From positions 821,427-885,426 of the forward strand of contig SJOL01000719.1 of assembly GCA_004794785.1 (NCBI GenBank): DNA of 64,000 nt. The letters are read 5' to 3'. The position numbers and the translations under genes were made by a program. This stretch comes from Opisthorchis felineus. Lineage: Eukaryota > Platyhelminthes > Trematoda > Opisthorchiida > Opisthorchiidae. The notes under the pieces are model-generated. The model saw nothing but the letters and a program-made list of their open reading frames with translations. It was not told where the DNA came from and did not search any database. Numbering within the stretch: the first letter of the stretch is position 1; each line of letters starts with the position of its first letter. This document shows positions 4,188 to 54,419 of the stretch, one piece after another.

Positions 4188-4386
4188 GGAGAGATTCGGC
4201 TGGAATTCAGATGTCTCCCATAAAAAACGAATTGGTAAGCAACTGAGTGTGTTTGTAGGATTTCGTACACTTCTGGTCCAAGGTTGACGGAAACCCGGAA
4301 TCTGCGGTTACCTGACAAGCTCCAAAAAGAGCGAAGCTGGTCATGAGCTTTCGAAGAGTTTTCAACGACCTTATGAGTAGTGTAGT
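4188..4386 (+). repeat. Degenerate hammerhead repeat
   Basis: GAGAGATTCGGCTGG, CAACTGAGTGTGTTTGT, AAGGTTGACGGAAAC and TTATGAGTAGTG occur in the usual order around the ribozyme relic at 4305-4350. Confidence 0.55.
4305..4350 (+). ncRNA. Hammerhead ribozyme relic
   Basis: CCTGACAAGCTCC...GAGCGAAGC keeps the stem II pairing (CTC with GAG), but the CTGATGA core is CTGACAA and GAAAC is GAAGC. It is flanked by the usual repeat body. Confidence 0.45.
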
Positions 4387-4399
4387 ATGCCTATGAAAC

Positions 4400-6240
4400 G
4401 TTTAAGAGTGATTATGATCAAATTTTCACCTGTTGTACAGCCGATCCAAAATAATGATTATCCAAAAAACAGATATTTTCTTGTAGGAAAACTACAAATA
4501 GTTTCGCTGAAAGCTCTCCGAGTAGTGTTCCATCAATAAATTATACGGTGACATCTCAAGTATCGCACCAAACGAGACATAAAGCGACCTCTGTGCAGCA
4601 AACTCAGATGAGGAATAAGACAGACTAGATATTCAGCTAGGATTCAGTTGATTCTACGAGTCCGAAAATGAGTGTGTTTTGCAAGCATTCAGGACAGTCC
4701 TTTGATCAGCAAACTGTGTTTTGTTCAAGGTAGCAACATATGTTCCACATTTTCTGGAGTTCCACTGTAGCCGTGATAGTCAGCCAGGTCAGCAGCCTGT
4801 CCGGTTTTAAACTATTCACGGGCCCAGCAACTGTGTTCACATGAAAAACCATGACCAATTCTGACTCGAACCATTCAGGCCGTATTACGCCTCAGTCATT
4901 AGACTTAGTGAGATGGTGGTCGTACACCATATTCCCAACTATTGATGTTGGTGGACATTGTGATGGCAGGAATTCGTGCCAGTGAACGTTATAGCAGGTC
5001 GTATTAGGAGACCTTGCTAGTGTGATGATCTGCTCCGAAAGGTCAGCATGATTCACATTTAAATGCAAGTCACGGAATTAACCTTTTTCTTAGCCAAAAA
5101 GTGTCATATCACTAATTGAGTGTAACAGGCCAAACGGACGACAAACCGTCGGTAACGTTGGCCTTTAAGTGAGAAGTGAATGAACAGTCTATGGGTTAGG
5201 AGGTCGTACGTTCTCGCACGAAAGCACTAGCTCTCAGGAAGCTCTTACAGTAACCTCTTGCACAATAACAGTTGACGCAGATGCCCTTCTAAAAGATCAT
5301 TTACTTTGGGCCTCGTGTAACCCCACCATTTTTGTTTGACATCTAATTGAGATAACAACTTTTCCGTTATTTAGTGATGGTTTGTCCGCTGATCGATTTT
5401 TGTCCATTCCGTTTTATTCATCATTTTGCCAAGTGCAGAACAGACATTTCAGTGCCTGTTCTTTGTGTGTACATACCGGGTCAGTGAGTTTTGTGCAAAT
5501 CAGATTCACCAATGAATACCATTTAAGTGAGAGGAGAAAGTATGATGATTGAGAGTCGTTGCGAATGAAATAGCCAAATGTAAATGGAGCTCCCAGTTGC
5601 ATAGCGACGAACATATCCCTTCAAATCTCAATCTCTACAGAGATCTCAGCCTTGGAAAATCACATAATTTTGTGAGGCACAAGACAGCAGACTTTGTGAT
5701 GACAGTGTTCATGAAGTCTTGATTCCTGGAATACGCTATTCCTAACGTACACACTTAGCAACCTGCTTCCAGTTTCAGTGTTCAAAACGTAATACAACCA
5801 GTTTGAATATAGTTCATTCATTTTGTCAGTACTGATTATTTCGATACTAACATTTAAGGAACTGGATTTTGATTTAAACTACTGCGTGGTACAGAGTCAC
5901 ATGACTCGAGTTTCAAGCAAAGTATAGCGATTATCTTGAATTCCCGTTGAACTCGGGTGCCAGAAAAGGACGGTCTTGAATGTCATAATTTTCAACGTAT
6001 TCCCATGAAGTTGCAGACGTCGCAAGTCAAATCATGTCGGAATGTGAGCAGATGGCTATAAGCAGTGTGATGTGTACTCACAGTACAGCAAACACCGGAT
6101 GGGAACTGCCACTGCTCTTTCCACTAAGTCCATGTTGATAAGCTTTCGTTATCTAGTTTGTCGGCTGGCAGGTCAGGAGTAGAGCAGAATTCACATAGTT
6201 GCACAGGGAAAAACTTCTGGTTCATAAAGGAAAGTACGCG
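4400..6240. other. No supportable feature
   Basis: Unique-looking sequence without recognisable exons or repeats. Confidence 0.5.
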
Positions 6241-6242
6241 CA

Positions 6243-6432
6243 AGGTTGCTGAAAACTCTTCGACGGCCCACGACAGGTTTCGTCCTTCTTAGGATTCATC
6301 AGGTAGGCGCAGCCCCCGAGTTTCCGTCAACCTTATGTTCTACGTGAACCCAAATTGGACTGATTTCGACAGATACATTCATTTGCAAATCAATTTGGTC
6401 TTCACGAGAGACTCAGTTAAGCCCACATGAGG
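6243..6432 (-). repeat. Hammerhead repeat monomer
   Basis: Minus-strand unit from the CAAGGTTGCTGAAAACTC end through an intact ribozyme, GAGTTTCCGTCAACC and the AAATCAATTTGGT block. It is truncated in the body. Confidence 0.65.
6266..6308 (-). ncRNA. Hammerhead ribozyme (type I) with compensatory stem II change
   Basis: The minus strand reads GCCTAC, CTGATGA, TCC-TAAGAA-GGA, GAAAC, a GTC cleavage site, then GTGGGC. Compared with other copies, a C-G pair of stem II is U-A here, so pairing is kept. Stem I is perfect. The first stem II pair is an A-C mismatch. All catalytic core bases are present. Confidence 0.75.
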
Positions 6433-8000
6433 CGTGGAGCCGGACTGTACTGTAATTGATCGATCGATTTCACTCATTCGAACCTCTCACGTAAAAAGCT
6501 CTTGAGGAAAAATCAAAGACAGTTTGCAAACATTCGAAAAATGTAGGTAGGTCCAGTAACCTGCACTAACTATTAGCTGCTCAAAAGCGCTGCACAACCC
6601 AAAACTTTCTGTCGGAACCAATAATTGTTTACTTCATCAGAAGCTAATGGGTTGAAAACCAGTAACGAACACTTAGTCAGATGAAGGTAACAGACGAATG
6701 TTTTGTTACACTGAGCGGTGCCACGCTTTCCACACGTTCAATCATTCTTTATTACTCTTAGCCTGTTATTCAACAAGCTCATTTTTTAGAAGTGCAAACT
6801 GTTTTGCAATACATATCTCTAGAGCGAAACGCCTGACTGAAAACGGATGGATGAACAAGGAACATTCATCTGAGAAAATAAAATATCCTCACTTCTTCTC
6901 CGTTAGCTTGCGAATCAAATGTCCAAAAACACAACGTTAGTCATTTCAGTCTGATTCACATCCTGAAGGCGGTAACCCCCAGAACATATCTTCCGTTCTG
7001 CTCAAAAATCTGGAGTGGAACATGACTAAACCTGACCGAATTATTCCCGACAGCCTTCATCGATGAATTATTATGGGGTCTATTCACCTGCACTCTCAGT
7101 CCGACTTGATCCCTCCAATTTCGAAACACTTGGCAACCTTGAAAATGGTTTACTTAGGGGATGAATGATTGCCCGGTTGGCATGTGTCACTTTTTTGCAA
7201 AATGCAGCCTGAAAATTCAAACTGGATGTTTGCCGCACCAGGTGATGTTGCTACATGAGCCAGTGCTTGAGGTCGGACAGTGCACACTCGTTGACAAAGA
7301 CTAACTCAGTTTCGTGAAAGTACCTGTTGGTATAAAGGAACATCTGAGAACTCACGATAATGTATTATACACCATTCGGTCTCAATATGCGCCGTGCTGC
7401 CATACAAAGTACGAACTCGGGATTTTCGAGTCACAGCCGTCAATCAACTTATAACCTCTGCTGATCACCGCCCAATAGTCACTGCTCAAATATGGAAGTT
7501 TGAGCAATGACTAGGACAGCTTTTGAGCGTTCCCAAAGGAATACAGTTCACGTTCTATCAGCCCCATTTTGATGCATCATGAACTTTATAAATTAGAACA
7601 TGTTTTGGGGTTACTTAACCATACTTAGCCAAAGAACTAATGCAGTTTGTAAGTATGCGAGTTGGTCACCGATGTCACTCATCGTCTCCAATATTGGCAG
7701 ATTCGACGGCAAGTTATTTAACCAAAGCCATATAAGGCTGATAAGGTGAAATTAATCAATGGAAACTGTCTAAGATTAGGTTATCCTGGAAGATCTGATG
7801 TGCCATCGATTCAACGATAAAGTTGGATAATCCGCATGGAACTGACAACCGGAATGTTAGGGACTGCGTCTCCAGGGTGGGTCACTTTGTGCAAAAACAA
7901 AACCCCGTACGTTGGTTCTGGCCCACATGTGTAAGCAAATCACGCAGAAAGGATATCTGAGAAGTGGTCAGTCGAGGAACTCGTCAACGTTTTTCACCAG
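6433..8000. other. No supportable feature
   Basis: Nothing recognisable apart from an inverted GTCACTGCTCAAA / TTTGAGCAATGAC pair near 7480-7515. Confidence 0.45.
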
Positions 8001-8004
8001 CCGC

Positions 8005-8165
8005 TCGTGGCCGAACGTTTAAGTGTTCAAACTATTGGCTGAAAGGTGGCGGGTTTGAGACTCTCTACTGGAGTTTCGTGCGACAATGATTCCCAATAAG
8101 AACGAAACGGCTGTACAGTGCTTCTCGGCTTTTCAACATAGATTGACGTCACCTACAGTACGAAG
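8005..8165 (+). repeat. SINE-like repeat, family B
   Basis: The head GGCCGAACGTTTAAGTGTTC looks like a Ser/Leu-type tRNA box A. A box-B-like GGGTTTGAGACTC follows, then the conserved 3' part CCCAATAAGAACGAAACGGC, CAGTGCTTCTCGGCTTTTCA and ATAGATTGACGTCACC. Confidence 0.6.
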
Positions 8166-8226
8166 CCTCCATTAAAACAACAAACGTGATCAGTGTTCGC
8201 TCGATGGTCTACTTTATGAAAAGCTA

Positions 8227-8433: not shown

Positions 8434-9363
8434 GAGACATTACTATATTGATTGATTGGATGTATGGTAGTTGGTTCATTCTTGTTACCACTAGCCTGTT
8501 CTTCATCTTGCTTCTGCACGTGATGATCACCGTCAAGTTCATGGTATCACTTTAGATTACCCAATAGCCTGTTGTTTAAGCGTCCATATTTCCTATTGCA
8601 TTGTGTATTCTTCCAGACGTATGCAGAGTACAGCTAAAGACAAACGCAGTTATGACGATGGATACCGCTGAAATTTGTGTTCCTTTTTCACAGTAATGCA
8701 CGATCATGCGTACATTGCTCCGACTAAACTCAAAACGCATTGTCTCATGTCTCTCTCTGAGCAGACATTTTCACGTGTCTCGGTATCATTTAGTGATCTG
8801 AGCATCTGACAAAACAATAAAACATTCTACGTAGAAAAAACCGTTTTTGTGGGCTGAATCAAAATTTCCCCGTCAGTTTTCCGTCGTTCAAATGTAGAAT
8901 AAATTTACAGTTCGGTTCAAAATCAGGTGATATTCACTTTCATGTGGTAAGCAACCCACTAGGTCAGGAGCAGAGTTTCGCTTATTCCAAACGAAACCGA
9001 TAGGAACGTAATCGCTCAACTTTCTCAGATACTTTTCTAAGTTGTAAATGGACAGAGCACAGGATACCAAAGTAAAAAATTAGGAAACTCTTCGTAAGTC
9101 GTCGGTACTGATGAGAGAGGACTTGAGGATAAACACAACGAGATATGCTGCTTGGCTTGGACTCGATGATGCCATAAAGATCCATGGAGCCAAGTGATTT
9201 GTCACCCGGTTAACCGCTTATGGCAGCATTAGCAGCCACGGGTCATTGTATCGTTATGATGGAAGTCCAACGACTATCTTTGCTTGCTGAAATAAGAATG
9301 AGTATCCATCAGTTTGTTTGGGGTGCATAACAAAACAAAATAGGTCATTTTGTTGAAGGAACG

Positions 9364-9572
9364 CTACTCACAAGGTTGCTGAAAACTCCTTGACAACCCG
9401 TGGCCAGTTCTACCCTTCCTCTTCTGACTCGCCGTCCCCCGAGCTCCGTCAAACTTACGTTATATTTGAACCTAGCTTGCACGGAATCCGCGATGTACGT
9501 TCATTTGCACACCAGTTTGCTTTTGACAAGGGACTCAACTGATTCCCAGCTGAACCTCTCACTTATGACGGT
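9364..9572 (-). repeat. Degenerate hammerhead repeat
   Basis: ACAAGGTTGCTGAAAACTCC, CCGTCCCCGAGCTCCGTCAA and CAACTGATTCCCAGCTGAACC mark a minus-strand unit whose ribozyme core is no longer recognisable. A plus-strand body scrap with AGGCGGCC and GCATATTCA lies nearby at 9715-9792. Confidence 0.5.
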
Positions 9573-9799
9573 CTCCTATATCTGAAGGTGCTGCACACAG
9601 GACAATTCACGACTTTGCTGCGGCGATATGGAACGATGTGGCAATATATCTTCTTGGAAGAACACTAGTTGCTGGAAACGTTTCAAAAACCCACGATTTG
9701 TTCACCCCTACCCCTTTGAATATCGAACCAAGTGGCACTTCAGGCGGCCTTCTTGCTGCATATTCATTCGAAAAATATAATAAACAAGTTCTAATGCGT

Positions 9800-11395
9800 T
9801 TCATTTGAGTCCGGTCCTCAATTGGAACTGAACTGCTATGTAAATGGGTGTAGTTAGCATAGGCCATTTCGGTCCTTTCGTTTAGATACCGAAATCTTTG
9901 TATGTTTGCTACTCACAATGTATTCTGACACACTCACCGGTTGGTGTGCGCGCTCATTTGTGTGAACCCTCGGGATACAGCAGTCTCTTCATTTATGAGC
10001 GCAAAATTCATCCGAATTCCCCATTTCTTCTCTGTGTTAACTATCATATTTTTCCATCGTCGGCAGTTAGAAAAACTGGTTGTCTGGCCTAACTTGGAGA
10101 TGTTAAGTTTCAAAAATTCAGATCATCCTTTACAGTAAGAATATTTTTGGATAAATGCAAGAGATCCCCTAAAAGATCTCACTGGAGGAACTCACTTTTA
10201 TTCAGAATTTCCCATATCGCTCACTCAACCCATGTAGATGTCCCCAGAGAGCCTTCGCATATGAGTCATGCGGTTGTACGTTAGTAGACAGAGTAAGCCG
10301 ACCCAATACAATTAATGTATTTAGGGAAGACGCACGCTAGCAACCTGTTGGAATAATGGTGAATGGAAGAACTTTCTATAGTGAGGAGTTGTTTATCGAC
10401 CAACACAAAATAGGCGGTTACACGCTGTTAGACATGGAAGTAAGGATCTCATTTGCACCGAGTATTTGAAAGGTGAACATTCTAAAGCGCGGCCTTGAAA
10501 TTTTTTAGGCCTACTTTGAATATAAATCAATAATGAACAAGCAAATCAGTTTCACCATTTCCATATCAACCATGCATCAGATGCGGAGATGGAGATTTGA
10601 AGCTTGACCGGACACTACTCGTAAGTTTCATCAGTAGTTTACACCGTTACACTGGTAGCATGGTTTAATTTATTGGCAGCTGATCAGGTGAGAATGACAC
10701 ATGCGCTGATTATATATCCTCTTTAATACAGTTGCGTCAACCAAGGCCACAAGATGGCGCGATGTCCTTCGTTGCTATTGTATTTATTTCGGTTTTAAGT
10801 ATCCTGTCTGTAATGCAGACTGACGAGAAACACTTACATCTGACATTTCTCTTGTCACATGGAATTCTGTCTCAGTGTTCGTGACTGAAACACAGTAGTC
10901 CGCGAACAGCACCACAAAACACTAGAATCCAACAGTTGTGCTCTGGATAATACACATAGAGTAGTTTTCTGTGTGCGCTGCAACCATTTGCTTGTTGATG
11001 ACGATTCAGTAGGCTTTCGCCTTTTCAAATAAGCCGTATAAAGGCCAATGAACAAGACTGGAAACCGAGGCATCATAGTACTGACCCTGCTTTTTCAATT
11101 TGTGTAGGAAAGCCTGGGGTTCGCGTCCGAGTGTGCGCTGATTAAAAAGCTGAAAAGTCTATTCTCAGCCTCCTCGAGAAAACAGCTTACTTGGCAAAGA
11201 CGAACGGCTGGATGAGAATGACAAGCTGGGATAATTATGTCCCAAAACCATAGCTATCCTGATACCTTTTGTTAAGCAATGCGGATTTTTCATAGCTGTA
11301 CTGGCGGGCCAATTGGATTTTACGGCAAAACGGGAGTTTTAAGTAAACGTCGACTTGTTGACCAATCCTGGTTATTTACCATAACCTGGAGTTAA
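9800..11395. other. No supportable feature
   Basis: A few frames of 60-75 codons but no family resemblance or coherent splice pair. Confidence 0.45.
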
Positions 11396-11724: not shown

Positions 11725-12024
11725 GGCTTTGCGCATTCCTACCACCACAAATGAACTCGAAAACGGCCAAATTCACCATACGAGATGTTCCGATAATAAC
11801 ACTCAACTTGCACATCTTGCCAAGTCTATAACTCTAGGCTACATGTAGTGTAGTTTCTGGGAATATCAGCGCTGAAATGGACTTGTAGAAATCCTAATGT
11901 CAGCATGGAAAGCAAAAGTACAATGAGAAACAAAAGAAAACATCTAGTCAGGCGATTCCGCGTGTTCTCTATAGGCAATATACAAAACATCTACTGGGGT
12001 TTGAAATGAGTAAATGAGAAAAAA

Positions 12025-12310
12025 AACACATTTGCGCACTGATTTGGTTTTGACGGGAGAATCCGACTGAATGTCTCGACTACTATGGTCTTCTTCCGCT
12101 GAATCTGCTGCCCAATGCCGTCCCGTTTTTCAATTAGTGCGATATTCGAGTGATCGTATTTCATTATGGCTGAACACGTACGCACGGTCCCCAAGTTTCC
12201 ACCAACTTTATGTTCTATCTGAACCCAAATTGTGCTAAATTCCGCGGTGAAATACACTCCTTGGCATACTGATTTGGTTCTAACGAAAGACGTAATCACA
12301 GCTAAATTTC
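12025..12310 (-). repeat. Two fragments of hammerhead repeat body
   Basis: Minus-strand fragments near 12030-12085 (GATTTGGTTTTGACGGGAGA) and 12186-12308 (CCCCAAGTTTCCACCAAC onwards). No ribozyme core remains. Confidence 0.45.
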
Positions 12311-13499: not shown

Positions 13500-15315
13500 G
13501 TGTGGACCCATCAGAATGACTGTTCCAGGACAGGAGGACGATAGTTCATACGAGAGTCATACAGGTGTGGATTCTACAAAATCCTGCAACCACCAACACG
13601 TGAAATAAAAATGTCCCTTTCGCATATCAACAAACACTGTGGATGCGCTTTTTGAAGTATCCATGTTCTGGCTGAAAATCACAGAATAAGTTCAATCCAG
13701 AAAACTAATCTCAGTATAATTGTTTTAATGCGGGTACTTTCAAAGATGAAGCCAGATAAAAACGGTCAACCGGATAGTGGACGTTCATTATTAGTTCAGA
13801 TCATCCATTGAACTACTGAGGTCTGACAGAATCTTCAACCAGCTTGCCCGAAAACTCTCCTTGGGCTTGAAGATTAGAATGCAGGACGTTAAACACAGTG
13901 ACTTGAAATAAAGCGCCATAATGTCCTGTCGACAACTATCATCATTCAACATTTCTGCGTAACATTTGGGGTTTTTACGTCCTTCGTATCTATGAATCTA
14001 TGAACTCAATTGCACGCTTCGCATTTGAGAATAGTTTGCTTCGAGAACTAAGAACGTCAATATGTACTATAAAGGATATTCAACCTATGACTCAGAATCA
14101 TCGGAAATTTGGCCCCAAAATATCAATACTCGTGGTTAACTTTGATAGAATTAGTCAATATAGTAAAATTTTCTAATTTGGTACAAAGATTTACTCTGAA
14201 AATGGAAAATAAACACAACACTGTTATCCAGGCCGTCTAGTTGAATATTTTCACGTCCTTACCGGCTGACCTGTCACTCCGGTTTGGCAGCTTAGCGGAA
14301 GTACATTAATTGTCGGAATAGGGCAGGAGGCATGAAGGTCGCGTGTCACAGAAACAAATTGGACTGGACTGAAAAAATAGCTTTGGAGTGTGAGTATCAA
14401 GATATGATGAAGACTTGAGATTATTCCTCTTAGTAAAGGATCACCGTGTACCAGCGAACTTCGAATGCGTGAAATTCGGAAGTGGTGACCGATGCTTTAG
14501 GCAGCGAATGTGTTTCATCGGCCGGCAAACTGTGATTCTAACAATGTAATGGGGCTACCAATAGTCTTCCGTGTAATTTGGAGCTAAAACGCTGGTCCAA
14601 GATCTCTTAGGCTTATGATGTTTATTTTGGATCCCATAGAAACTCGTCCCTCAACTGTGATTGAACCGCTGCGCTTGCTCATGCTAAAACAGATGGCTTG
14701 CGCGGCAGACAATGCGCGAATGCGGGGGAGCCTGTGTTTCTGAAAGAAGGAACCCGGAGGAATAAGGTCGACGGACAGACGCAATGAAGCGTGCTGGTAG
14801 GCTTCCGTTGGCAGACACCCAATGGCTCTACAATAAACAATGGCTCAGCATTAAACACTGAGATGCCGGTGTTATCTATCCGTCGTTTTAATTTTTACAG
14901 TAATACCGCAATTCCTCTGCACATTACCAGTCACATCGGCCCGGATCTATCCAGGTGAATCATTTCGTTTGTCGTGACCAGACAAACGGTGCAAGCACAC
15001 TAGTGGCATAGTTTCATCTTTTAGTAACTGTGACGAACCTTACTCAACGTGACCGTTGAGGCCTCGATGACAAATCATGAAGGCGCTGGAGCCCCAAAAG
15101 ACAGATTCTACTCTTGCGGATGTGTCCACAGTTTGGTGCTGATAGGTTCGATAGGAGTTGCTCGCAGAAGGATTGCCTATGTTTGTGTACCGGGACATAC
15201 AGAGCATTAAAATGCGCCGCGCCATGCCCGCATGTATGGTCCTTTGTCACGTGTCTCTAACCAAAACTCGATTCTCTCATAACTTAAAAATAAGTATAGC
15301 CCCTGCATACACATA
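13500..15315. other. No supportable feature
   Basis: AT-rich non-coding sequence with no recognised element. Confidence 0.45.
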
Positions 15316-15319
15316 CTAC

Positions 15320-15725
15320 ACTACTCATAAGGTTGCTGAACACTCTTTGACAGCCCACGATTAAGTTCGTCCTTCCTGTGGCTCAGCAGGTAGGCGCGAT
15401 CCCCGAGTTTCCCTCAAACTTATGTTTTACTTGAACCCAAATTGTACAGATTTCGACAAATAAACTCATTTTTCATATAAATTTGTTTTCGACGGGAGAC
15501 TCTAGAACCCAGCTGAATCTCTCGTTTATGATGTTGCTCAGCACCCTTTTGAGTCTACACAGTGTATCACGATATCTCGAATATGGTACCAAGTGAAAAA
15601 TGAGGCGGCCTGGTGCAGCATATTCAATTACTTGAAACCATCATAAACGAGAGATTCAGCTGGGTTCCACGTGAATCTCCCGTCAAAACCAAACTGATGT
15701 GCAAATGAGTGTGTTTGTCGAAAGA
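15320..15725. repeat. Inverted pair of hammerhead repeat units
   Basis: A minus-strand unit (about 15320-15535, with degenerate ribozyme) is followed by a plus-strand body (about 15562-15725). The GAGATTCAGCTGGGTTC block appears in both orientations, near 15508 and 15650. Confidence 0.65.
15353..15395 (-). ncRNA. Hammerhead ribozyme, degenerate
   Basis: Stem I (GCCTAC with GTGGGC) is perfect, but the core reads CTGCTGA and GAAC, so essential bases are lost. Predicted inactive relic. Confidence 0.55.
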
Positions 15726-16740: not shown

Positions 16741-17090
16741 ACCATTACGAAAAACTCGCCTCTTGTTTCTTCGTTCAAATGACTGATCTTTAGCAAATGA
16801 TTACTTTCATCCCTTTTTATGAAAATACAGGCAATTTCCCGTTCAGCATGCAGTAGGAAACCATTTTACCCAAACCTTTCTTGCTTTACCATGAGGGAAA
16901 TTTTGATTAAAATGGCTTTATACTGCAGACGGCGCAGAAAGTTACCAATCTTTCCATAAAATGGGATAAAAGTATCGCCAGATGTAAATCAGCCGTGTAT
17001 GTGAAGAAAAATTGATGAATTTTCTTTGTTTCTCTGGTTTACTTTCTTGCTTTACCATGAGAAGCAAAAAACACCTCAAAAAGTTAAGGA

Positions 17091-17245: not shown

Positions 17246-17282
17246 TTTTTCTGTTCATTTTACCGTAAGAAGATAGAGATCG

Positions 17283-25470: not shown

Positions 25471-25472
25471 CT

Positions 25473-30300: not shown

Positions 30301-33300
30301 GGTGAAGCATATTCAGTTGCTTAAAAACACCATAAAAACGGGAGATTCAGCTGGGTTCCAGGTGAGTTTCCCGCAAAACCAAATTGGTTTGCAAATGAGT
30401 GTAATGAGTGCAATTTGGGATTAATAAGAACATAAGGTTGATGGAAACTCGGGGACTGTGCCTACCTGATGAGCCCCAAGAAGGGCGAAACCGGTAGTGG
30501 GTGGTCGGAGAGATTTCAGCAACCATATGAGTAGTGTACTACATCTAGACATATCATTTCCACTTTCAACTGACCAGCAGCTGAGGGGCATACAGCCACA
30601 TCGGTTGACTGAGTTGACCAACCATAATGCACTTATGTGGACGAGCAGTCTGGCGGTTGCGAACATCGAACGGCAGCTTCCAGGGCTTGTGAGTACATGT
30701 CACCGTAGGTTAGCCAACGGGACGTATTCTGAGACCAAACATATTTGAATAGTCGGAAAACTTTAGGAAACCAGCTGTAGATCCATAAAAGGCACTAACA
30801 CAGTGGAATAGCCATTTTCCTTACCGGGTAAGTATTTTGGATGGAGTATGATTTTTTCGAAGTGGATATGCCACAACTTGTCGTCAGTTATTGCCTGGTC
30901 AGAAGGGGTCTTGCTGGAAATGAAAAAAACGCAAAAGATGTGGATACATGGGGATAATATCAATTGCGAACTGTCAGGAAAATGTGTCGTTTTATTGTGG
31001 ATTAGTAAGTAGCTTGCTGGTCAACTTTACCAAGTAAATTGTATAGTGTTATTACTGTGGTCATTGTTCGAAGCGTGGTCACCACCAGCAACAACGGTTA
31101 TTCTAGCGTCAGCAACCTATTCAGTAGTATTGACATCACTACCCTCGTAATTATCCTCATAGGTGTCAAACCTTTCACGATTTTAGACGAAAATGCTCCG
31201 GTTCTCTTTATCTGAGTGTTTATCCACTTACACTGTTCTGGAGGACCATGCATGGTACCAAACTACAGTAGTACATACCTCAGAAGATAAAACGCGTGTT
31301 TGTAACTTACAAGAGGATAAGTTTCTTCAAGTTTTCAAATAGATTTTGAAGGAAGTTGGATCCGACTTCGTCGATGCCGCTTGAGCCAACGATTATTTCT
31401 CGGTCCGTGTGTTCTTCACCGAGCTAGACCATGAGGTAATTGAAATATAAAGAAATACGTTTTTAAACCATGGTGGTCATGACTGATAGAAAAAGTGATG
31501 TGTATCAAGGAGGGGGAGATGCCATTGTACGAGGATGAAGTCCAAGCATATCTATTTCCCCGAGCAGTGGGCGGTCGTGATGGCTATGGTTGTGGTGGCA
31601 GTGGTGGTGATGGCAGTGGTGGTGGTGGTGGTGGCAGGTGTGGTGGTGGCAGTATTGGTGGTGGTAGTGGTGGTGGTGGAGGTGGTGGTGGTGGTGGTGG
31701 TGGTGGCAGGTGTGGTGGTGGCAGTATTGGTGGTGGTAGTGGTTGTAATGATGGTGGTGGTGGTGACGGCGGCGACGGCCATGTTAGGCAGTTGGCGCCA
31801 CTTCTTTTCGGAGTAAGTTGTAACAAGAACCTGTCTCATTTGTTAAAATAACCGTCTTTTTCGTCGGTTTCTCTCATGGTTTTACCCTCAGTCATCCTCG
31901 AAACGGAGAACAAGACTGTGTGTGCTGGTATGTCAAGAACAGTCAGTCGTGGAACCAACCTTCAAAAAGCCACCCTCCGACACCGCAGTGCACTTTTGTG
32001 ACCATCCGCGAGCCTAAGTCTCATGCTCAACACAAGTTCAAGGCTAGATAGTCATTGCTCACGTTTCACTAAGTCAGCTTACCCAGCAGTTCAGTGGAAC
32101 AACAATTAACAAAAGCTGGCAACCTTCCAGCTGTAAAACCTCTTCTGTTTCTAGCTACCGTACTAGCCGAAGGAAGCACGAGTGCCGAGATACAACCTGG
32201 TTGCCCAAGCCTGGAACAGCCGAGATGCAGGGATTGGGTTAGACCTCCTGGTCAGTAAGTTTACGCCTTAACCGCTGAGTTATTTGGAGCTTGAACAATG
32301 ATGCAGTTCTGTATGAATGTGTCTTGGTCACAGTGGTCCAATATTACGCTTTGTGCGGCAGTTTCGATTGATTTGATCCACAGCAGACCGTAAACCCAAG
32401 TCGAACTAGATCAAACTTGCACGATAAGTTCTATTTTTGGACACCTGGTTAGTCTCTGTTGGTCCTACTGTGTGGGCTTCCCTCTTACTGAATTATCAGA
32501 ACAAGTTAAGATTTCAGTACAGTAGATGCGCTTGAAATACGTGCAGTTTTAGGGTTCCCAAGAGTTAGGATCGGACGTTTTGCTTTCTGCAATATTTAGT
32601 TTCATTCAACCTGTTGTGTCCCAGCTGGTCTGATGTGATATCTTGCACAATAGTTACCAAGAAGCGAAAATACCCCCTTGTTTGGGGTGTTTGATACTTA
32701 GATGGAAACTACTGAACAGCCAACCCATACGCCAATCTTATGATTCAGTGGAGTGCAAAACGTACAAGTACGAAGGAAAAAAGCGACCTCAGATGGACAT
32801 AATGATTTTTTCAACATGGCGTCTGTTATACCTGACTGAGTCACCAATTTGTTATATCTGATTGCTGCTCCCGCTCCAGTGCCTGGTGCCAGAAAAACAA
32901 CTCCCCGTCAAGGAACACAACAGCTTTATTGCAACAAGTGAGTGCGTGTGAGTTACAACAGCCCCGAGCTATCTGAAGGGCACTTTTTGATTGACATTTT
33001 GACATTCTGACATTGATCCAGGCTGTCTGATCGGCGTTTAGTGAACACCCATCAATATCGATCGTGCTTCTATGAAGTGCCTGAACACTAGTTATGATCG
33101 GTCGTGCTTCTGTGGCGTGCCTGAACACTCATCGACTTTTGCTGAATTGATAGAATGACTGACTGGCCTGGATGCATGCCGGCTTTCCTATTGAGATTTT
33201 GGTGGAGTTTTAGGGTCTCAGTAGGTTCCGGGCGTTCTGGGGTTACTTTCAAGAATACGACCTTCCTGAAAGTGTCAAAGCAACTCAAAACACTGTGAAA

Positions 33301-39361: not shown

Positions 39362-42207
39362 ATCCACCTATCTATCTATCTATTTAGTAAACATACAAAC
39401 AAGCAGATAAATGTGGCCCGTGGACGAACATTAATCTGACAAGCACTGTACCGACTGGTCAGGTCAGCAGATCCCCTGCGTTATATTTGAATTTTGCATC
39501 TGACCTTTCTCGCGTCAACCAATGGAGTATTTAGGTAAGGGCTGTAGTACAGTAGTTTTCCTTCGGGTGGGCTTTAAGAAACCCATGTTTATACCCCCTG
39601 AGATTCCGTTCCGTTCCAAAACGCCATCATTTTTCTCGCACAGGATTAAACCACGGTATCCGAAAGCTGGAGGCCAACTTACTGATTTTGATCAGATGTT
39701 TTCAAAGTGGCCATACACCCCCTTCCCGTTCGACTGATATACTGCATATCAAAAGGTGGGTTAAGCTGCAGAACCTACTGAAACGGTCGCTGAAATGTAG
39801 GGTGTGTGGGAGGAACTAAATCTGATATCCATACCATTGTTCTGTTACCCCTTGCTTCTTGTCCAAGAGAACGAGACATTTTTCTTGCCGAGCAGGAAGG
39901 ATAGATACCAACTAATCAGCGACACTGTTGTACTATCCGTCAGTGACTGGCTGACTGGTAAGAATCCCAAAACGCTGAACTATGGAGGGATGGAGGTTCG
40001 AAAGTCTTGAAACAGGCCATTTACTCCGGCAGTTGTTACCTCACTCACGAGGAAGGACCTGTAATCTCCCTTATGAAAATATACTGCGATATCCCGAATA
40101 TCGTGCCAACTGAAACAGGAGGCGGCCTGTGTGCAGCACATTCAGTTGAAGAATATCATAAACGAGAGATTCGGTTGAGTCTTCTGTATGCACATGAGTT
40201 TATTTGTTGAGTTTCGCGCAATGTGGGTTCAAGTGGAGCACAAGGTTGACGAAAACTCGGGAACTGCGCCTACCTGATGAGCCCCAAGAAGGGCGAAACC
40301 TGTCATGGGCTGTCAAAGAATTTCCAGCAACATCGTGAGTAGTTTTCGTTATGAAAATATACCGCGATATCTCGAATATTTTACCAAATGAAGTAGGAGG
40401 CGGACTTTGCGCAGCACATTTAGTTGAAGAATAACATAAACGAGAGACTCAGTTGAGTCTCCTGTGCAAATCAAATTGATATTCAAATGACTGTGTGTCG
40501 AAAAGAGGAGACTAATCTACAGCGCTTCTTGACTTTCATCATGGATTCATTCCACTTGTAGTAAAGGCCAGGCAAATCTTCAAAGTATTTACGAGATGCG
40601 TGCGTGTTCTGACCGGTGTGCTAACTTCCCCAGCTCTATAGGCGTGAAATAAAAGGGAAACCTAGACAATAGCTGGCCTAGGGGGCTTTTCGAGTCAGCA
40701 CCGGCGACAGTATGGATGCAGAACTCCAGCTTATCTGTGAAATCCTAACGGAGAACGGATATTTTTAGCATTTTATAAAGATAAAACTCAGACCTAAGTT
40801 CAAATGTGAAACTCCGAAAAAACTCATCAGTCTCGAAAAAGCCCGGTTACACCCGTCTTTCCTTTAGAAGCGGTATGTCTTGTGAAACGCTGATCCGTTG
40901 TATGACCCCTCCACTTTGAAGCGGACGTTCACTGCAGTCCAATTAAAGGCCGTGATTCACAGCTCAACAACAACATTAAGGGTAGATTGCCGGTCCACGA
41001 TCCACCAATGGTGATTTATTCATTTGCTTCCAACGTCCGCACATGAGTCTCCCGTGAAAACCAAATTGATTTGCAAATGACTGTATTTCTCCAAATCAGT
41101 TCAATTCGGGTTCAAGTAGATTACAAGGTTGGCGGAAACTCGGGGACTGCACCTAACTGATGAGCCCCAAGAAGGGCAAAACCGGTCGTGGGCTGTCGAA
41201 GAGTTTTCAGCAACCCTGTGAGTAGTCACCTTTATGAAAAGAGACACCTGTACATTTAACTAATCCCAATAACAGCAGCAGCCTATAGGTGTCACAGAGG
41301 AAAAATAATTTCACAAGACGGGTGAAACCTGCGTCAGACACTCGAGGTGACAATCAACAGGTTATGTGGAACCCATGATTGGAGATTGAGTGGCGCTCTA
41401 TCCTATCTAGGTGTGAGCCAATCACACTCCTGATTAGCCGCTCTTTGCCAAACGGTGGAGTGTTCATTCACTGGTCGCAGGCCCCAAACTGTCTGAGTTC
41501 CGTGTGATACGCACTGATGATGATTCTCAATAAAGACGAAACAGCTGCACAATGCCTGTCGGCTTTTCAACATAGACTGGCTTCTATTGAAAATCACCAC
41601 CTACGTATCCTTGGGGTAGATTGCCACATGAACATTCGCCATTTTTTTATTCTAGTGAACTTTGTTACACGTTAATTGTACACATCCATATTCTTATCAG
41701 AATTTGCCTTCAACTTTTAGTCAAGCCCCTCCCCCGGTCAAGAACATCGCATCTTGTCATACACTGGGTACGCAGACACAACTGTTGGACAAGCACTCTG
41801 CCTCAAATCGATTTTGTCACCTGTTTTAGTGACAAAAAGCCAGCAACAAACGGACCAAGTTTAGGTAACCAGTAGCTACGATAATCAAATTGGAGACATT
41901 CAAATGAATACCTAAGCACTTTAAATAGTCTATTTTATGTTGTTACCAGTTTTTGCCCATTTTCGCCTTATAAAGGTGTTCACTGGACACCGAACCTTCC
42001 CGCTGGACTAGAAATAACGTTTTTTCACATCAAATACTCAACAGCACGCTTACGTTCTCTGAGTACCCTCCGGATAGTTCACCACCCTTAGCTACTCTTG
42101 TGGTGTCAGTAAAGGTCCGTTGTTGGGGGAAAACGCTCGCATATCTAACCAGTTGACTCACCAGCTGCAACTCCTAGGAGAACGAATAACGTCCAATGAA
42201 GTATCAT
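27151..42207 (-). CDS. S1-family (chymotrypsin-like) secreted serine protease, five exons
   Basis: This is a secreted serine endopeptidase gene of 286 residues, assembled from exons 42207-42162, 38072-37823, 30913-30825, 29380-29070 and 27315-27151. All introns are GT-AG and junction phases agree (1, 2, 1, 0). Residues 1-15 form a signal peptide. A pro-segment ends at Arg43, and the mature chain starts IINGYD at 44. The triad is His89 (TAAHC), Asp134 (YDIALV) and Ser235 (GDSGGG). Disulfide partners Cys74-Cys90 (42-58 in chymotrypsin numbering) and Cys203-Cys220 (168-182) are present. The partners of Cys172 (136) and Cys231 (191), normally at 201 and 220, are absent, and an extra Cys179 follows GWG. 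Position 189 at the pocket base is Gly229, next to Ile230, so trypsin-like Arg/Lys preference is unlikely (inference). It is probably active, since the triad and the Asp before the catalytic Ser are kept. The family is certain; the physiological role is not visible. Splice sites come from reading the sequence, not from transcripts. Confidence 0.9.
29070..29380 (-). CDS. S1 protease exon 4: catalytic Asp, GWG and FCAG motifs
   Basis: This 311-bp exon runs from an ACAATAG acceptor to a GTAAGT donor. It encodes residues 129-232, with DIALVKL holding the catalytic Asp, [10 protein letters not shown] at the usual GWG turn, ACTEMY (Cys168 equivalent) and EFCAGYY (Cys182 equivalent). The extra Cys after GWG is unusual. 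The last codons supply Gly-Ile-Cys-Ala, which form the S1-pocket base just before GDSGGG. Confidence 0.9.
30168..30540 (+). repeat. Hammerhead repeat unit with chimeric left end
   Basis: The body from GCTGTCGAAGAG (30201) through the CGAGATTCAGC-like block near 30343 to AAGGTTGATGG (30434) precedes a full ribozyme and the next AGCAACCATATGAGTAGTG. The left end starts with a ribozyme half in the opposite orientation. Confidence 0.7.
30460..30502 (+). ncRNA. Hammerhead ribozyme (type I, minimal)
   Basis: CTGATGA (30466-30472), stem II GCCC/GGGC, GAAAC and a GTA cleavage triplet (30494-30496), which satisfies the NUH rule. Stem I GCCTAC pairs with GTGGGT over six positions with G-U wobbles. The stem III sequence ACCGGT is self-complementary, so two transcripts could pair to build it. 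Confidence 0.78.
30825..30913 (-). CDS. S1 protease exon 3: segment between catalytic His and Asp
   Basis: This 89-bp exon has a pyrimidine-rich acceptor (TTTTTTTCATTTCCAG) and a GTAAGG donor. It encodes residues 99-128, including IILHPKYLP, which matches the HP-x-Y strand that precedes the catalytic Asp in S1 proteases. The phases (in 2, out 1) match exons 2 and 4 exactly. Confidence 0.85.
31560..31775 (+). repeat. GGT-rich minisatellite with internal 72-bp duplication
   Basis: About 200 bp of (GGT)n with GGC, GGA and AGT interruptions. A block containing GGCAGGTGTGGTGGTGGCAG is repeated at 31633 and 31705, period 72. The long open frames here (poly-Gly, poly-Val, poly-Thr) are by-products of the repeat. 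It lies in intron 2 of the S1 protease. Confidence 0.85.
32133..32291 (-). repeat. tRNA-derived SINE, family A
   Basis: Minus-strand copy with AACTCAGCGGTTAAGGCG, ACTTACTGACCAGGAGG, a degraded box B and CAGGCTTGGGCAACC. It lies in intron 2 of the S1 protease. Confidence 0.6.
33055..33130 (+). repeat. Short direct duplication, about 41-bp period
   Basis: TCGTGCTTCTATGAAGTGCC and TCGTGCTTCTGTGGCGTGCC, each followed by TGAACACT, occur in tandem within intron 2 of the S1 protease. A related GATCGTGCTTC lies at 39188. Confidence 0.6.
35890..36030 (-). pseudogene. Possible RTE-type LINE fragment or unknown exon
   Basis: After a TTGTTCAG acceptor-like site the frame reads [19 protein letters not shown] and then [16 protein letters not shown] similar linker (…DxWLxxKAEEIQxYAD…) occurs between endonuclease and reverse transcriptase of RTE elements. 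It may instead be a real exon with a GTAATG donor. Low certainty. Confidence 0.2.
36760..37080 (+). pseudogene. CR1/jockey-like LINE reverse transcriptase remnant
   Basis: [10 protein letters not shown] at 36892-36921 is the catalytic FADD motif of non-LTR reverse transcriptases, followed by a stretch resembling the ACELL-x-x-LN segment. The residues before it loosely follow the PQGS-x-LSP...LY-x-x-DL block. An in-frame TAA sits just upstream of the motif. It lies in intron 2 of the S1 protease, antisense to the gene. Confidence 0.5.
37823..38072 (-). CDS. S1 protease exon 2: propeptide, activation site, catalytic His
   Basis: This 250-bp exon encodes residues 16-98. The acceptor after AAATCAG restores phase 1; a second AG 15 bp downstream would also keep frame, so the exact start may vary by five residues. 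It carries the activation site [10 protein letters not shown] and the TAAHC motif with the catalytic His. It ends at a strong GTAAGT donor in phase 2. Confidence 0.88.
38490..39044 (-). pseudogene. BEL/Pao-like LTR retrotransposon reverse transcriptase remnant
   Basis: This 184-residue open frame lies in intron 1 of the S1 protease, on the same strand. Residues about 35-95 read [29 protein letters not shown] and SSYMELSVC. They follow the BEL/Pao order VVFDAS...SLNDxLLxGPxLxxxLxxVLxRFR...ADIExMYxQVxV. The catalytic-region residues are diverged, and no flanking LTRs or other domains were seen. Similarity outside this block is not evident. Confidence 0.4.
39322..39386. repeat. TA then TATC microsatellite
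   Basis: About 36 bp of (TA)n passes into TCTATCCACC and (TATC)n. It lies in intron 1 of the S1 protease. Confidence 0.9.
40062..40505 (+). repeat. Tandem dimer of the hammerhead repeat, 278-bp period
   Basis: Two body copies follow each other with the ribozyme between them. Matching landmarks are GCGATATC near 40086 and 40364, GGCGG at 40121 and 40399, and CATAAACGAGAGA near 40156 and 40433; the GGCGG spacing is 278 bp. A ribozyme at each junction is the arrangement of schistosome Sm-alpha arrays and of retrozyme-type elements. Confidence 0.75.
40268..40310 (+). ncRNA. Hammerhead ribozyme (type I, minimal), inside tandem repeat dimer
   Basis: The core is complete: CTGATGA (40274-40280), a stem II built from GCCC and GGGC around a CAAGAA loop, GAAAC, and a GTC cleavage site at 40302-40304. 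Stem I pairs GCCTAC (40268-40273) with ATGGGC (40305-40310), five of six positions. Stem III is only one or two pairs, as in Sm-alpha and Penelope-type ribozymes. Self-cleavage is predicted 3' of 40304. It sits exactly between two copies of the repeat body. Confidence 0.8.
41040..41232 (+). repeat. Hammerhead repeat, 3' half unit
   Basis: It starts at GAGTCTCCCGTGAAAACC and runs through the mutated ribozyme to CAACCCTGTGAGTAGTC. The rest of the body is missing. Confidence 0.65.
41151..41193 (+). ncRNA. Hammerhead ribozyme, core mutated
   Basis: CTGATGA, stem II GCCC/GGGC, ACCGGT and GTC are all kept, but GAAAC reads AAAAC, which removes the conserved G12 used in catalysis. Stem I has mismatches at both ends. 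Predicted inactive. Confidence 0.65.
41402..41595 (+). repeat. SINE-like repeat, family B
   Basis: Plus-strand copy in intron 1 of the S1 protease: GCCAAACGGTGGAGTGTTCA, GGCCCCAAACTGTCTGAG, ACGCACTGATGATGATTCTC, AATAAAGACGAAACAGCTG and TCGGCTTTTCAACATAGAC. Confidence 0.6.
42162..42207 (-). CDS. S1 protease exon 1: start codon and signal peptide
   Basis: The exon encodes [15 protein letters not shown] plus the first base of the next codon, then a GTGAGT donor (phase 1). The hydrophobic run is a typical signal peptide. An upstream ATG on the same strand opens a frame that stops after two codons, so the ATG at 42207 is the chosen start. A TATAAAA box lies 37 bp upstream of it. Confidence 0.85.
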
Positions 42208-43794: not shown

Positions 43795-44036
43795 CCAGCT
43801 GTGGCGTTCCTCAGGCTCACCAGGTAGGCGTCTTCCACGATTTTCCATCAGTCCCATTTCCTAACAGAACATCGGTGGTGAGCTGTCGAGGTGTTTATAT
43901 CAAAAACTTACTTCGGTCTCTTGCCTGGTGCTGTAACTTAGACATAAGGTGACCTTTTTTGGGCGTGTTCGGTCAGAGAACTTCATAGACAAGGGATTCA
44001 GCTGAGACCCATTTGAGTCCTCCGGTAATACCATCT
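43795..44036. repeat. Relics of hammerhead repeat
   Basis: Near 43800-43830 a minus-strand relic keeps CACCAGGTAGGCG and a GCC-rich stem II side. Near 43985-44036 a plus-strand body scrap reads GGATTCAGCTGAGACCC. Strongly diverged. Confidence 0.35.
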
Positions 44037-44039
44037 TAG

Positions 44040-46235
44040 AACATTTATCCCATTCAACAGAATGTAGCCACCTTCTCACCTGGTGTTTGACACTGTCCTG
44101 AAGCGTGAGAGATTAGCAAGTTTAGGCGATGAAATGAAGTCGCTTTCAACCAAGTACAATCAAGTGTTCATGGTCCTATAAACACGTATAAACGCACTTC
44201 TGTTTGTTGCATATGCCGCTGTGTATCCAACATGATGAATGTTTGCTACATAAAAAGGTTTGCCTCACTTTGTTGGATGGTGATGGCTCCAAGTATTCCA
44301 CCCCATATTGTGTCATCCTCCATATCCACTCTACCACAATCCAGGCATTCCAGGTGACGGCCCGTATAGATCTCATTAGATCTACATTAGATTTCAATGA
44401 TTATGGTGAAATCGGCTCCTACTCTACTATATGCTATCGATTCTGATTTGTTCCGAAGCTACAAAGCAGTCATGCCCCATTCTCCTCTTGTCCTTGACAG
44501 ACAGCCCCCCCCCCAGTTTGGGAACCTAGAAATTGGCCCATTTTTCCTATCCTGATGAAAACTTTGTCGTTGTTGTTGTTGCCTAACGCCAGTCGGCTAG
44601 TGCCGGTATTTAAACTCTATCGCATGTGCACGTCAGCCTCTCCTGTGTTTGCTTAGATATTCTGGTCCCACTCCAAGCTTATTGTTCTCCTACTGCGCTC
44701 ATCGTGCAGTTTCTTGGATCACAAATAACCGTTGCATGTCAGTAGTTTCAAAGGATTCATCTGTCGGTTCGCGTTTAATTCCGTTCCTGACATGATCCGA
44801 GTACATACCAACCTATCATCAGACTCGTGTTACTGATTGGTAGCCATCCCAACTAATCAGTAGACTTCAAATTGGTCTTCGAAATCTCATGTCCCAAACG
44901 ACAGAAGTTGTCGTAAATGTGGTCTCCCTCAATTAGCTGTCCGGCCTAGATTCGTCTCCACAATTTCGGAAACCGCGCACATTGACTTTAAGACCATTAT
45001 GACCTCAGTTTCTTGCCATATGGACAGTTTTCCAAATAGAACATGCAACTAAATCAACGTGGAACTGGAAGGTTATCTAGCTATCTATACCGTTTCTTAA
45101 GGTTGTGAACGAAATCCTAGTGTATGCTACATGGAGACAACTTCAGAGGACGGAAAGTTGAGCCTTTTATGCTTATTGCCGTTGGTCAGTCAGCAGTTGA
45201 TCCGTTCTCCGAGCTTGGCAACTGGCTCGCAAACGCTTCATCACCATATGAGGCGATATTTTCAGGGTGCATTTGGGCGTGACCCACCCAGCTATCACCT
45301 GATCAACAGCCAGCAAACTCACCTCAGCTGCCGGGAATTAGACATATCGGGAAGCTTATGGCTTCAGACAAGCTCTTGGCCGCACAGCGGTGACTATTGT
45401 AGGCAAGTACGCCAAAATTTCATAGGTTAAGTGAGCTCTCACTCAACTCCTCTTCCCCTTCACAGTGATTTTCAGTACTTCTCCGTTCTTGAGTCCGGTC
45501 GTGGGCTATCAAACATATATGAGCAAGCTCAAAAGCAGGGTGTTACGTTTATACAGTGCAAGGCTTACCTCTTCTTCTCAAGCCCCTTGATTGACGACAG
45601 GCAAGTAAATCTTTTTTATGACATAATGCCACCATGTAGTATGTTGATGACATTGTGCCTCAACTTCAAGCAATATTTTGAAAACAATGAGACCGGAATC
45701 TCATACGCATACCAGGCTGTTTATTTGTAGACGCTGGCAAGCTCATCGAATCGATAGCTAGTCGTTCAACGGATCTCTAGACCAACTCACAGCATCCAGT
45801 TAGATGCGAATTTGGTTTCATTGATAGCCTGTCATTCTTGTTTCCGTGTTTTCTAATTTGGTAGTCGATTTCAACTGTTTGTTCCATTATTTGCCCCCTT
45901 TTTTAACCATTAGATATGTATTGACCGGAAGATGAGATTCCGAAAGCCTCATTGATCTTCAGTGTTCTTGCTGCATTTGGAATCGTTGGAATCTTATCCT
46001 GATAGTGAAGTCCCCCTACGAGACAAGCAAATCCACTTCATGTTTTTAACACGCTTTTAACTTGTCTCCTCATCAATTCTGACGTCAGAAAGACACAAGA
46101 ACGTTGATCAGGGACAAGGCTTTTGATGGACGCGCTGGATCATCCAGCCATACGAATTGAAGAAGGTACACACATACCGAAGTAGACTTTAGGCGAAATT
46201 TTTAATTCAGGCGTTGGTGTTTGTGGGATTTGGTA
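44040..46235. other. No confident feature
   Basis: Two adjacent plus-strand frames of 99 codons (45131-45730) have no recognised motif. A minus-strand stretch near 44265-44360 ends at a GTGAGG but lacks a good acceptor. Confidence 0.35.
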
Positions 46236-51505: not shown

Positions 51506-51510
51506 GTTCA

Positions 51511-51693
51511 GCTGTAACACTCTTTCGGTGCCTAGCTGACATGCCACCCGAAGGAAGCATAAGGGTTGGGGTACTGCCAGGTTGCCTAAGCCTATACAGG
51601 GGAAGTCGAGAGGCAGAGGTCAAATTCAAACTACGAACCTTCCGGTCAGTAAATCTGCGCTCCAACCACTAAGCCATCTCGCCCCGGAGCAAA
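51511..51693 (-). repeat. tRNA-derived SINE, family A
   Basis: Minus-strand copy with GGGGCGAGATGGCTTAGTGG, TACTGACCGGAAGGTTCG, TAGGCTTAGGCAACCTGG and CACCGAAAGAGTGTTAC. The head is well kept but box B is mutated. Confidence 0.65.
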
Positions 51694-51699
51694 CAGAGT

Positions 51700-53800: not shown

Positions 53801-53804
53801 GCGC

Positions 53805-53872
53805 TGGTTCAGATTGCCGAAGGTACTAAACCGTCGTTCTGACGACCTGGGTTCAAGTTCTCCAATGATGTA
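53805..53872 (+). repeat. tRNA-like sequence
   Basis: TTCTGACGACCTGGGTTCAAG holds an anticodon-stem-like segment and box B. The A box is poor. It may be another SINE head. Confidence 0.3.
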
Positions 53873-54206
53873 TTCAAACAAGCCTTGTCCTAATAGCCAA
53901 CAAATATGTGAAACAAGACGCCAAGGTTTGATGCACTATAAGATTGAGTTTGTTTCCACGGGGCACTGGATCCTGAAGCTACAACGAACTACGCTACTTT
54001 GGCGAAATAGACTCATCTGCAAATAAATTTGGTTTTGCGAGAGGCTCACCTGGAACCCAGCTGAATCTCTCGTTTGTGATGCTTCCAGGCAACTGAATGT
54101 GCTGCACCAGGCCACCTCATTTTCCAGTTGCTACGATATTCGAGATATCGCGATACACGTATATTCGTAATGCACTACTCATAAGGTTGCTGAAAGTTCT
54201 TCGACA

Positions 54207-54249
54207 GCCCACGACCGGTTTCGCCGTTCTTGGGGCTCATCAGGTAGGC
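54207..54249 (-). ncRNA. Hammerhead ribozyme (type I, minimal)
   Basis: On the minus strand: GCCTAC, CTGATGA, stem II with one mismatch (GCCCC against CGGC), GAAAC, palindromic ACCGGT, GTC, then GTGGGC. Stem I pairs at all six positions. It faces the plus-strand copy at 54347-54389 only about 100 bp away. Confidence 0.78.
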
Positions 54250-54346
54250 GCAGTCCCCATCATCATCTGCAGATGAGTGTATTTCGCCAATTTCGTGCAA
54301 TTTGGTTGCAAGTAGAACATAAGGTTGACGGAAACTCGGGGACTGC

Positions 54347-54389
54347 GCCTAACTGATGAGCCCCAAAAAGGGTGAAACCGGTAGTGGGC
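54347..54389 (+). ncRNA. Hammerhead ribozyme (type I, minimal)
   Basis: CTGATGA (54353-54359), stem II GCCC/GGGT closed by a G-U pair, GAAAC, ACCGGT and a GTA cleavage triplet (54381-54383). Stem I keeps five of six pairs. It forms an inverted pair with the copy at 54207-54249. Confidence 0.75.
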
Positions 54390-54419
54390 TGTCGAAGAAT
54401 TTTCAACTACGCTACTTCT

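Follow-up and report, generated by a model that had tools for sequence, protein, structure and literature searches.

Metazoan retrozymes without long terminal repeats (non-LTR retrozymes) and Penelope-like elements (PLEs) are the closest described systems to the repeat analysed here. Platyhelminth retrozymes have already been mentioned as a group (Cervera and de la Pena 2020, PMC7229834), and PLEs have been proposed as retrozyme movers on three grounds: type-I hammerheads in both, tandem copies in both, and the co-existence of the two (PMC7229834, PMC7761336). PLE insertions can be completed by an inverted, head-to-head pseudo-LTR (pLTR), with duplications of 8-10 bp and an optional 31-bp tail, head-to-head being the commonest inverted form (PMC3846280). 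A PLE protein studied in purified form cut and extended each of the two strands and began copying inside the RNA, at two adjacent sites (PMC11167929). Insertion evidence bears on which enzyme moves animal retrozymes and on how ribozyme elements move in animals. We analysed a hammerhead-bearing repeat family in 64,000 nucleotides of Opisthorchis felineus DNA (contig SJOL01000719.1, positions 821,427 to 885,426, forward strand; hereafter the window) and scanned the assembly GCA_004794785.1 (630,098,494 bp, 1,848 contigs). The family is probably a dispersed, non-autonomous and non-coding metazoan non-LTR retrozyme that a PLE inserts in trans, with circular or concatemeric RNA as the template.

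The pattern CTGATGA-N4..30-GAAAC matched the window seven times (0.30 expected): five matches belong to the retrozyme-like family and two (23641 and 41514) to another repeat. A longer family pattern with up to three mismatches was found at nine window places (0.01 expected), of which six are main family, two are the other repeat and one (46336-) was placed in neither. A covariance model built on 37 family copies scored above 58 bits at eight window places (4294+, 6320-, 15407-, 30448+, 40256+, 41139+, 54261- and 54335+), with a decayed hammerhead at 9443- (21 bits) and partial ones in addition; these matches are partly circular, because nine of the 37 model rows were taken from the window. The sequence-only reading had proposed a hammerhead repeat family with five sites keeping all core bases, and it was borne out on both counts: the window holds eight strong type-I copies of one family plus fragments, and exactly five of the nine aligned window rows (6258-6320-, 30448+, 40256+, 54199-54261- and 54335+) keep all core bases together with an allowed cleavage triplet.

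All copies can be laid on one circular 300-nt register, numbered here as "circ", in which position 1 is the GGGC of the stem I 3' strand and the ribozyme cut falls after position 298. The common body of about 230 bp that had been described beside the ribozyme is in fact a unit of about 300 nt (278 in the copy at 40 kb), which several copies traverse more than once. Its GC content is 46.7%, and its longest open stretch, in a tripled unit, is 63 amino acids (aa): the unit is non-coding and contains no reverse transcriptase (RT) or GIY-YIG reading frame. As a single strand, the majority unit folds better than shuffled versions (z -2.84, 2 of 200 as good), and as a circle it reaches -92.0 kcal/mol, compared with -73.7 (standard deviation 4.7) for 60 single-base shuffles.

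The hammerhead has the type-I core CUGAUGA...GAAA...UH with three stems and an open stem I, and all core bases are present in 17 of the 37 rows. Stem cells were paired in 87.3% of cases, compared with 27-44% in slid controls. Two-sided changes were seen in eight stem pairs (4.1 in shuffles), and this covariation is modest because the slid controls reach five to seven. Stem III has two base pairs closed by CG; 18 of the 37 rows have CCGG there, which makes ACCGGU self-complementary and fits the double-hammerhead mode described for the hammerheads of newts and PLEs (PMC6155905, PMC7761336). The hammerhead is predicted to cleave itself, and a circular RNA from the element is plausible.

For the insertion anatomy, 78 pieces were analysed: 17 in the window, 12 in loci L001-L008 (chosen by hammerhead match), 29 in L020-L039 (20 fixed stretches of 10 kb with preset coordinates on four contigs) and 20 in L040-L051 (12 later loci chosen by body pattern). 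The last set is no random sample, because its loci were retrieved with a 35-mer covering the first 3'-end site. The ribozyme cut is traversed, with at least 10 nt on each side, by 51 of the 78 pieces. Within 3 nt of the cut lie no RNA-3' ends and three 5' ends. Thirteen pieces exceed one unit, with a maximum of about 1.6 units. From this register it follows that the RNA template was continuous across the cut, and hence multimeric or circular.

The same element and PLE machinery could instead have used a transcript that stayed uncut and read through copies lying next to each other or partly in tandem, the hammerhead being a passenger or acting later and circles playing no part, an explanation that we regard as rather unlikely. 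Uncut multimeric RNA accounts for the traversal of the cut as well as a circle does, which counts against our preferred reading; hammerhead mutants insert normally in vitro, with unprocessed RNA as the main substrate (PMC11167929), and the hammerhead core shows no significant excess of conservation (see below). The loci read contained no long tandem array as a source, the pieces reaching about 1.6 units at most, yet 13 of 78 pieces exceed one unit. In addition, the L038 piece and the plus-strand arm of L006 each make one full turn, as from a circle.

RNA-3' ends cluster in two places, near circ 45 (following GTATTACG) and near circ 210 (following GTATTTCG), whereas 5' ends are scattered. Both sites share the motif AGTGTATTWCG, which lies in the two stretches of the unit that match each other best. 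The ends were counted in strict windows (41-51 and 205-215, 22 of the 300 positions), excluding pieces at locus edges; these were centred on clusters seen earlier but fixed only once every locus had been inspected, and they are a fairer test than the looser windows (37-59 and 200-219), also set after all loci had been seen. The strict windows contained 17 of 29 3' ends in L001-L008 and the window, and 13 of 19 in L040-L051; the corresponding counts for 5' ends were 3 of 29 and 0 of 19. Some 5' ends lie near the second start site, at circ 205-215 (for example L038, 213->210, and L006, 209->210), as if copying halted after one full turn.

Neighbouring pieces less than 60 bp apart were head-to-head in 16 cases, same-strand in one and tail-to-tail in none (p 3e-5 for 16 of 16 head-to-head). 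The 60-bp limit was our choice, and wider limits were also counted: up to 300 bp there were 18 head-to-head, two same-strand and one tail-to-tail. By set, the 16 head-to-head pairs fall as follows: four in the window, five in L001-L008, one in L020-L039 and six in L040-L051. In 10 of the 16 the arm alignments overlap by 1-12 nt, and these overlaps suggest that the arms may have been joined at microhomology.

A target duplication score of at least 8, one mismatch being allowed, was obtained for 9 of 49 distinct insertions, compared with 1.9% of mismatched flanks; L019 repeats L006 and was counted once. The clear duplications are 9-14 bp long, and 7 of 11 head-to-head insertions reach this score. 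The best are exact: 14 bp in L006, 13 bp in the window (53987/54405) and 13 bp in L038, where a single piece (4987-5282) makes its full turn from circ 213 to 210. A foldback or MITE-type (miniature inverted-repeat) DNA transposon, with inverted arms that merely contain the motif, would also show inverted arms flanked by direct repeats, but here the arms are unequal, end at differing places in the unit and have lost sequence at the centre and not on the outside, the duplication length varies between 9 and 14 bp and many copies are single-armed; an origin of this kind is hardly credible.

Twin priming, too, gives head-to-head arms and target duplications. The family could therefore be a short interspersed nuclear element (SINE) moved by a long interspersed nuclear element (LINE) with frequent twin priming, that is, 5' inversions, and the schistosome Sm-alpha element has been termed SINE-like (PMC2770079). 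Judged on the element's own sequence, this is improbable: the unit 3' ends lack poly(A) or a simple repeat, the two fixed internal 3' ends share one motif, and there is no credible tRNA-like part. No tRNA was found in the window; two tandem units gave no tRNA with aragorn at default settings and scores of only 28-38 when relaxed (-ps70), some with absent or odd anticodons; and the best B-box in the unit has three mismatches. A tRNA or RNA polymerase III (pol III) origin of the unit was accordingly set aside as unsupported.

Genome-wide, a 35-mer at circ 211-245 was found at 4,948 places and one at circ 31-65 at 700 places (up to two mismatches each), while the reversed controls gave none; the count that the sequence-only reading had suggested making thus amounts to thousands of copies. 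For the second 35-mer, 97 of the 100 listed among the 700 places were exact, which indicates that part of the family is young. The 20 fixed stretches contained 29 family pieces, covering 5,172 bp (2.6%). A non-autonomous, ribozyme-bearing retroelement had been proposed, and this description holds up: there is no open stretch above 63 aa, the copies are dispersed across many contigs, part of them have target duplications and they occupy this share of the stretches. Newt and some schistosome hammerheads do sit in satellite DNA (PMC6155905), so that tandem arrays carrying a hammerhead by chance were considered; with copies dispersed over many contigs and a longest piece of about 1.6 units, satellite DNA is a very remote explanation.

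The genome also contains PLE genes: all 150 scored candidates matched, out of 3,759 first-look candidates, so that PLEs are abundant, and three of them have open frames of 858 aa. Masked letters may account for a few listed PLE frames that are much longer. The PLEs form at least two groups, at about 85% and 58% to the query. PLE neighbours less than 5 kb apart among the 150 scored were head-to-head in seven cases, same-strand in three and tail-to-tail in none (table read by eye), a pattern similar to that of the hammerhead family. Tandem and head-to-head arrangements of neighbouring PLEs are seen in L015-L017 and the scored list. Three of the four PLE loci read have the common 3' end ...CCAACGACCAT, and L016 has an inverted copy at its other end. 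A decayed head-to-head copy of the hammerhead family adjoins a PLE (L015:4826-4872 (-) and 4910-5021 (+)) and was excluded from the counts. The element itself has head-to-head inserts, fixed internal 3' ends and 5' truncation, an anatomy that closely resembles the published PLE signature. The Penelope link made earlier is strengthened by this anatomy, although the unit itself is no PLE.

Insertion as a retrozyme would proceed as follows: a genomic copy would be transcribed; its type-I hammerheads, whose structure is present in the copies, would cut the RNA, probably as a pair held by the self-complementary stem III; the monomer would be ligated into a circle, or part of the RNA would stay uncut. 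A PLE protein would presumably make a staggered break of about 9-14 bp and begin reverse transcription at the observed end positions, inside the RNA and just past a copy of the shared motif, about 47 nt or 212 nt 3' of the ribozyme cut. Both DNA strands could be extended, the two cDNAs stopping at scattered points, and joining of the cDNAs at the RNA 5' side would give the observed head-to-head anatomy and target duplication. The end positions, orientation, duplications and continuity across the cut are read directly from the copies; transcription, cleavage, ligation, a PLE as mover and simultaneous priming on two strands are what we infer from them. In a more specific version, which we put forward only tentatively and with some doubt, an RNA circle carries the two RT start motifs and the PLE loads both break ends and copies from both strands at once. 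If so, head-to-head insertions would record dual-strand, circle-templated priming, and non-LTR retrozymes would be PLE parasites that spread as RNA circles.

Several further findings weigh against the preferred reading. At least one core base is lacking in 20 of the 37 hammerhead rows. In the Rfam covariance scan, no window copy reached the gathering score. The seven sub-threshold Rfam matches in the window comprise six to Hammerhead_HH9 (26.1-34.3 bits, the best with E 7e-5) and one to Hammerhead_1 (28.1 bits). Hammerhead_HH9, the best Rfam match for those six of seven sites, is an isolated amniote motif that is not known to form a repeat. The Rfam check was favourable at genome scale only: among 74 scored candidates RF00163 gave 21 matches at E<=1e-3, 16 of them over the cut-off (best 48.1 bits), and seven of the eight loci read among these matches are main family, L002 being a different hammerhead. 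With CpG positions excluded, conservation of the core did not significantly exceed that of the other positions (means 0.831 and 0.802, p 0.39), nor did it in copies at least 80% identical (0.946 and 0.895, p 0.13) or with L001-L008 added (0.873 and 0.822, p 0.10); a lack of excess core conservation, which the sequence-only reading had named as refuting it, is therefore what was seen, and core conservation was rejected as proof of ribozyme function. A lack of excess is expected where copies decay neutrally after insertion.

The fixed stretches give a weaker picture of the anatomy: strict windows held only 8 of 27 3' ends (p 5e-4) and as many as 5 of 27 5' ends (p 0.04), the head-to-head form was seen in only one of the 28 insertion groups measured there, and most old copies are single pieces. 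The sets richer in head-to-head pairs, L001-L008 and L040-L051, had been selected for a hammerhead or for the body pattern. A tail-to-tail arrangement occurs in one old pair (L034 4940+/5084-, 67 bp apart). In L040-L051 duplications were seen in only 2 of 13 groups (the one in L051 overlaps the piece in part and could have arisen by chance), and only one of five measurable head-to-head pairs scored at least 8. No PLE with AGTGTATTWCG at its 3' end was found: in the single PLE family that was read the end is different, and a match between PLE 3' end and element start motif was dropped for that family. Finally, for inverted PLE copies self-priming on an antisense template is favoured over two-strand priming (PMC3846280), which makes two-strand priming the least certain step.

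Coordinates of the window features are listed below; the head-to-head inversions, as well as the fragments at 12.0-12.3, 28.0, 43.8-44.0 and 45.5 kb, are additions to the sequence-only reading.

Copies, arms and target duplications of the hammerhead family in the window (register in circ numbering; bits from our own covariance model)
Feature	Position	Strand	Register	Details
Copy	4183..4394	+	136->50	Decayed hammerhead 4294-4356; 58.7 bits
Possible head-to-head partner of 4183..4394	4100-4167	-		
Fragment	4520..4684	+	31->196	
Copy	6235..6415	-	165->35	Hammerhead 6258-6320, all core bases
Head-to-head pair, decayed	9361..9855			Target duplication 11 bp with 1 mismatch
Arm of 9361..9855	9361-9709	-	284->39	356 nt of unit
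Arm of 9361..9855	9718-9855	+	70->208	
Two same-strand fragments	12020..12279	-	61->208 and 179->277	
Head-to-head pair	15304..15716			
Arm of 15304..15716	15304-15535	-	128->53	Hammerhead 15345-15407
Arm of 15304..15716	15553-15716	+	45->208	
Fragment	28040..28106	-	142->207	
Head-to-head pair	30167..30552			Target duplication 13 bp with 1 mismatch
Arm of 30167..30552	30167-30201	-		
Arm of 30167..30552	30195-30552	+		358 nt, >1 unit; hammerhead 30448-30510, all core bases, GUA site
Single piece, ~1.4-1.5 units	40079..40500	+	53->210	Internal period 278
Hammerhead of 40079..40500	40256-40318	+		All core bases kept
Copy	41044..41226	+	165->37	Hammerhead 41139-41201; core base lost, AAAAC for GAAAC
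Probably head-to-head, decayed	43807..44033			
Arm of 43807..44033	43807-43870	-		
Arm of 43807..44033	43871/43935-44033	+		
Fragment	45495..45555	+	293->53	
Head-to-head, best-preserved window insertion	54003..54410			
Arm of 54003..54410	54003-54258	-	253->210	Hammerhead 54199-54261, all core bases kept
Arm of 54003..54410	54290-54410	+	205->25	Hammerhead 54335-54397, all core bases kept
Left target-site duplication of 54003 insertion	53987..53999			AACTACGCTACTT
Right target-site duplication of 54003 insertion	54405..54417			AACTACGCTACTT

Among neighbouring features, a multi-exon serine-protease gene of the trypsin family lies at 27154-29402 (-) (Pfam Trypsin 5e-13 for one exon). Two of its exons gave eight protein matches, all flatworm: the best was Paragonimus kellicotti (63%), and the other seven include monogeneans, a tapeworm and flukes. 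The attribution of the DNA to a fluke agrees with these matches, which point to a flatworm, probably a trematode. A search with mitochondrial COX1 yielded nothing in the assembly.

Another dispersed family, whose core also resembles a hammerhead (CTGATGATTCCAAATAAAGATGAAAC...), occurs in the window at 23604-23708, 41480-41584 and 8086-8157, and in L018 near 824; model R1 gave 25.3 bits at 23623, and stem I pairs poorly by eye. These repeats at 23.6, 41.5 and 8.1 kb were set aside from the main family as a different one, perhaps another PLE-type minimal hammerhead. The hammerhead at L002:1501-1545 is a different, strong type-I hammerhead (RF00163, 47.6 bits) with the self-complementary stem III ACTCGAGT (by eye). 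The window also contains a GGT-type microsatellite of about 230 bp (31563-31796) and a further dispersed repeat, on both strands and about 75-82% identical (17083-17246, 20584-20682, 25470-25645, 51503-51690 and 63037-63133).

In the open-access literature, no report pairing a hammerhead ribozyme with Opisthorchis was found; hammerhead ribozyme and Clonorchis are co-mentioned in a Schistosoma japonicum egg study. No report of head-to-head retrozymes was found there among the matches listed, and the words "retrozyme" and "inverted" co-occur in several papers (for example PMC4918200, PMC11722881, PMC7761336 and PMC6431247). The suggestion that the element might be undescribed may therefore hold for the species but not for the kind, since platyhelminth retrozymes had been mentioned: it is a known kind of element, with an insertion form not found described for it in the parts of the literature examined.

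Sm-alpha and Sj-alpha of schistosomes are, by description, likewise high-copy, dispersed type-I hammerhead elements of a trematode. The likeness drawn earlier to Sm-alpha is only partial, because Sm-alpha resembles tRNA-Gln (PMC2770079) and the present unit has no credible tRNA-like part.

The agreement with metazoan non-LTR retrozymes (PMC7229834) extends to a small non-coding unit with a type-I hammerhead (170-400 nt there, 300 here), a GC content below 50% (46.7% here), the lack of visible LTR-type parts, target duplications of more than 4 bp and the suggestion of PLEs as movers. The arrangement differs: coral retrozymes form tandem dimers to 62-mers, whereas the present pieces are dispersed and do not exceed about 1.6 units, and many are head-to-head and end at two internal motifs; no mention of head-to-head insertion was found in the sections of that account examined.

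PLEs differ from the element in several respects: its unit lacks an RT or GIY-YIG frame, its second start site lies far from the hammerhead, and its hammerhead, unlike the minimal PLE form, has a pairing stem I and a stem II. A PLE-like signature, with two start sites, is present in the insertions themselves, in thousands of copies and in a genome that has long-frame PLEs. The proposal of a PLE mover can thus be tested with a single purified protein and an RNA of 300 nt, the copies in the genome indicating which insertion products to expect. With the PLEs that have a pLTR, tail and hammerhead (PMC3846280, PMC11167929), the element shares head-to-head inserts, a fixed internal 3' end and 5' truncation, and the 8-10 bp duplications of PLEs (PMC3846280) are counted as a further likeness.

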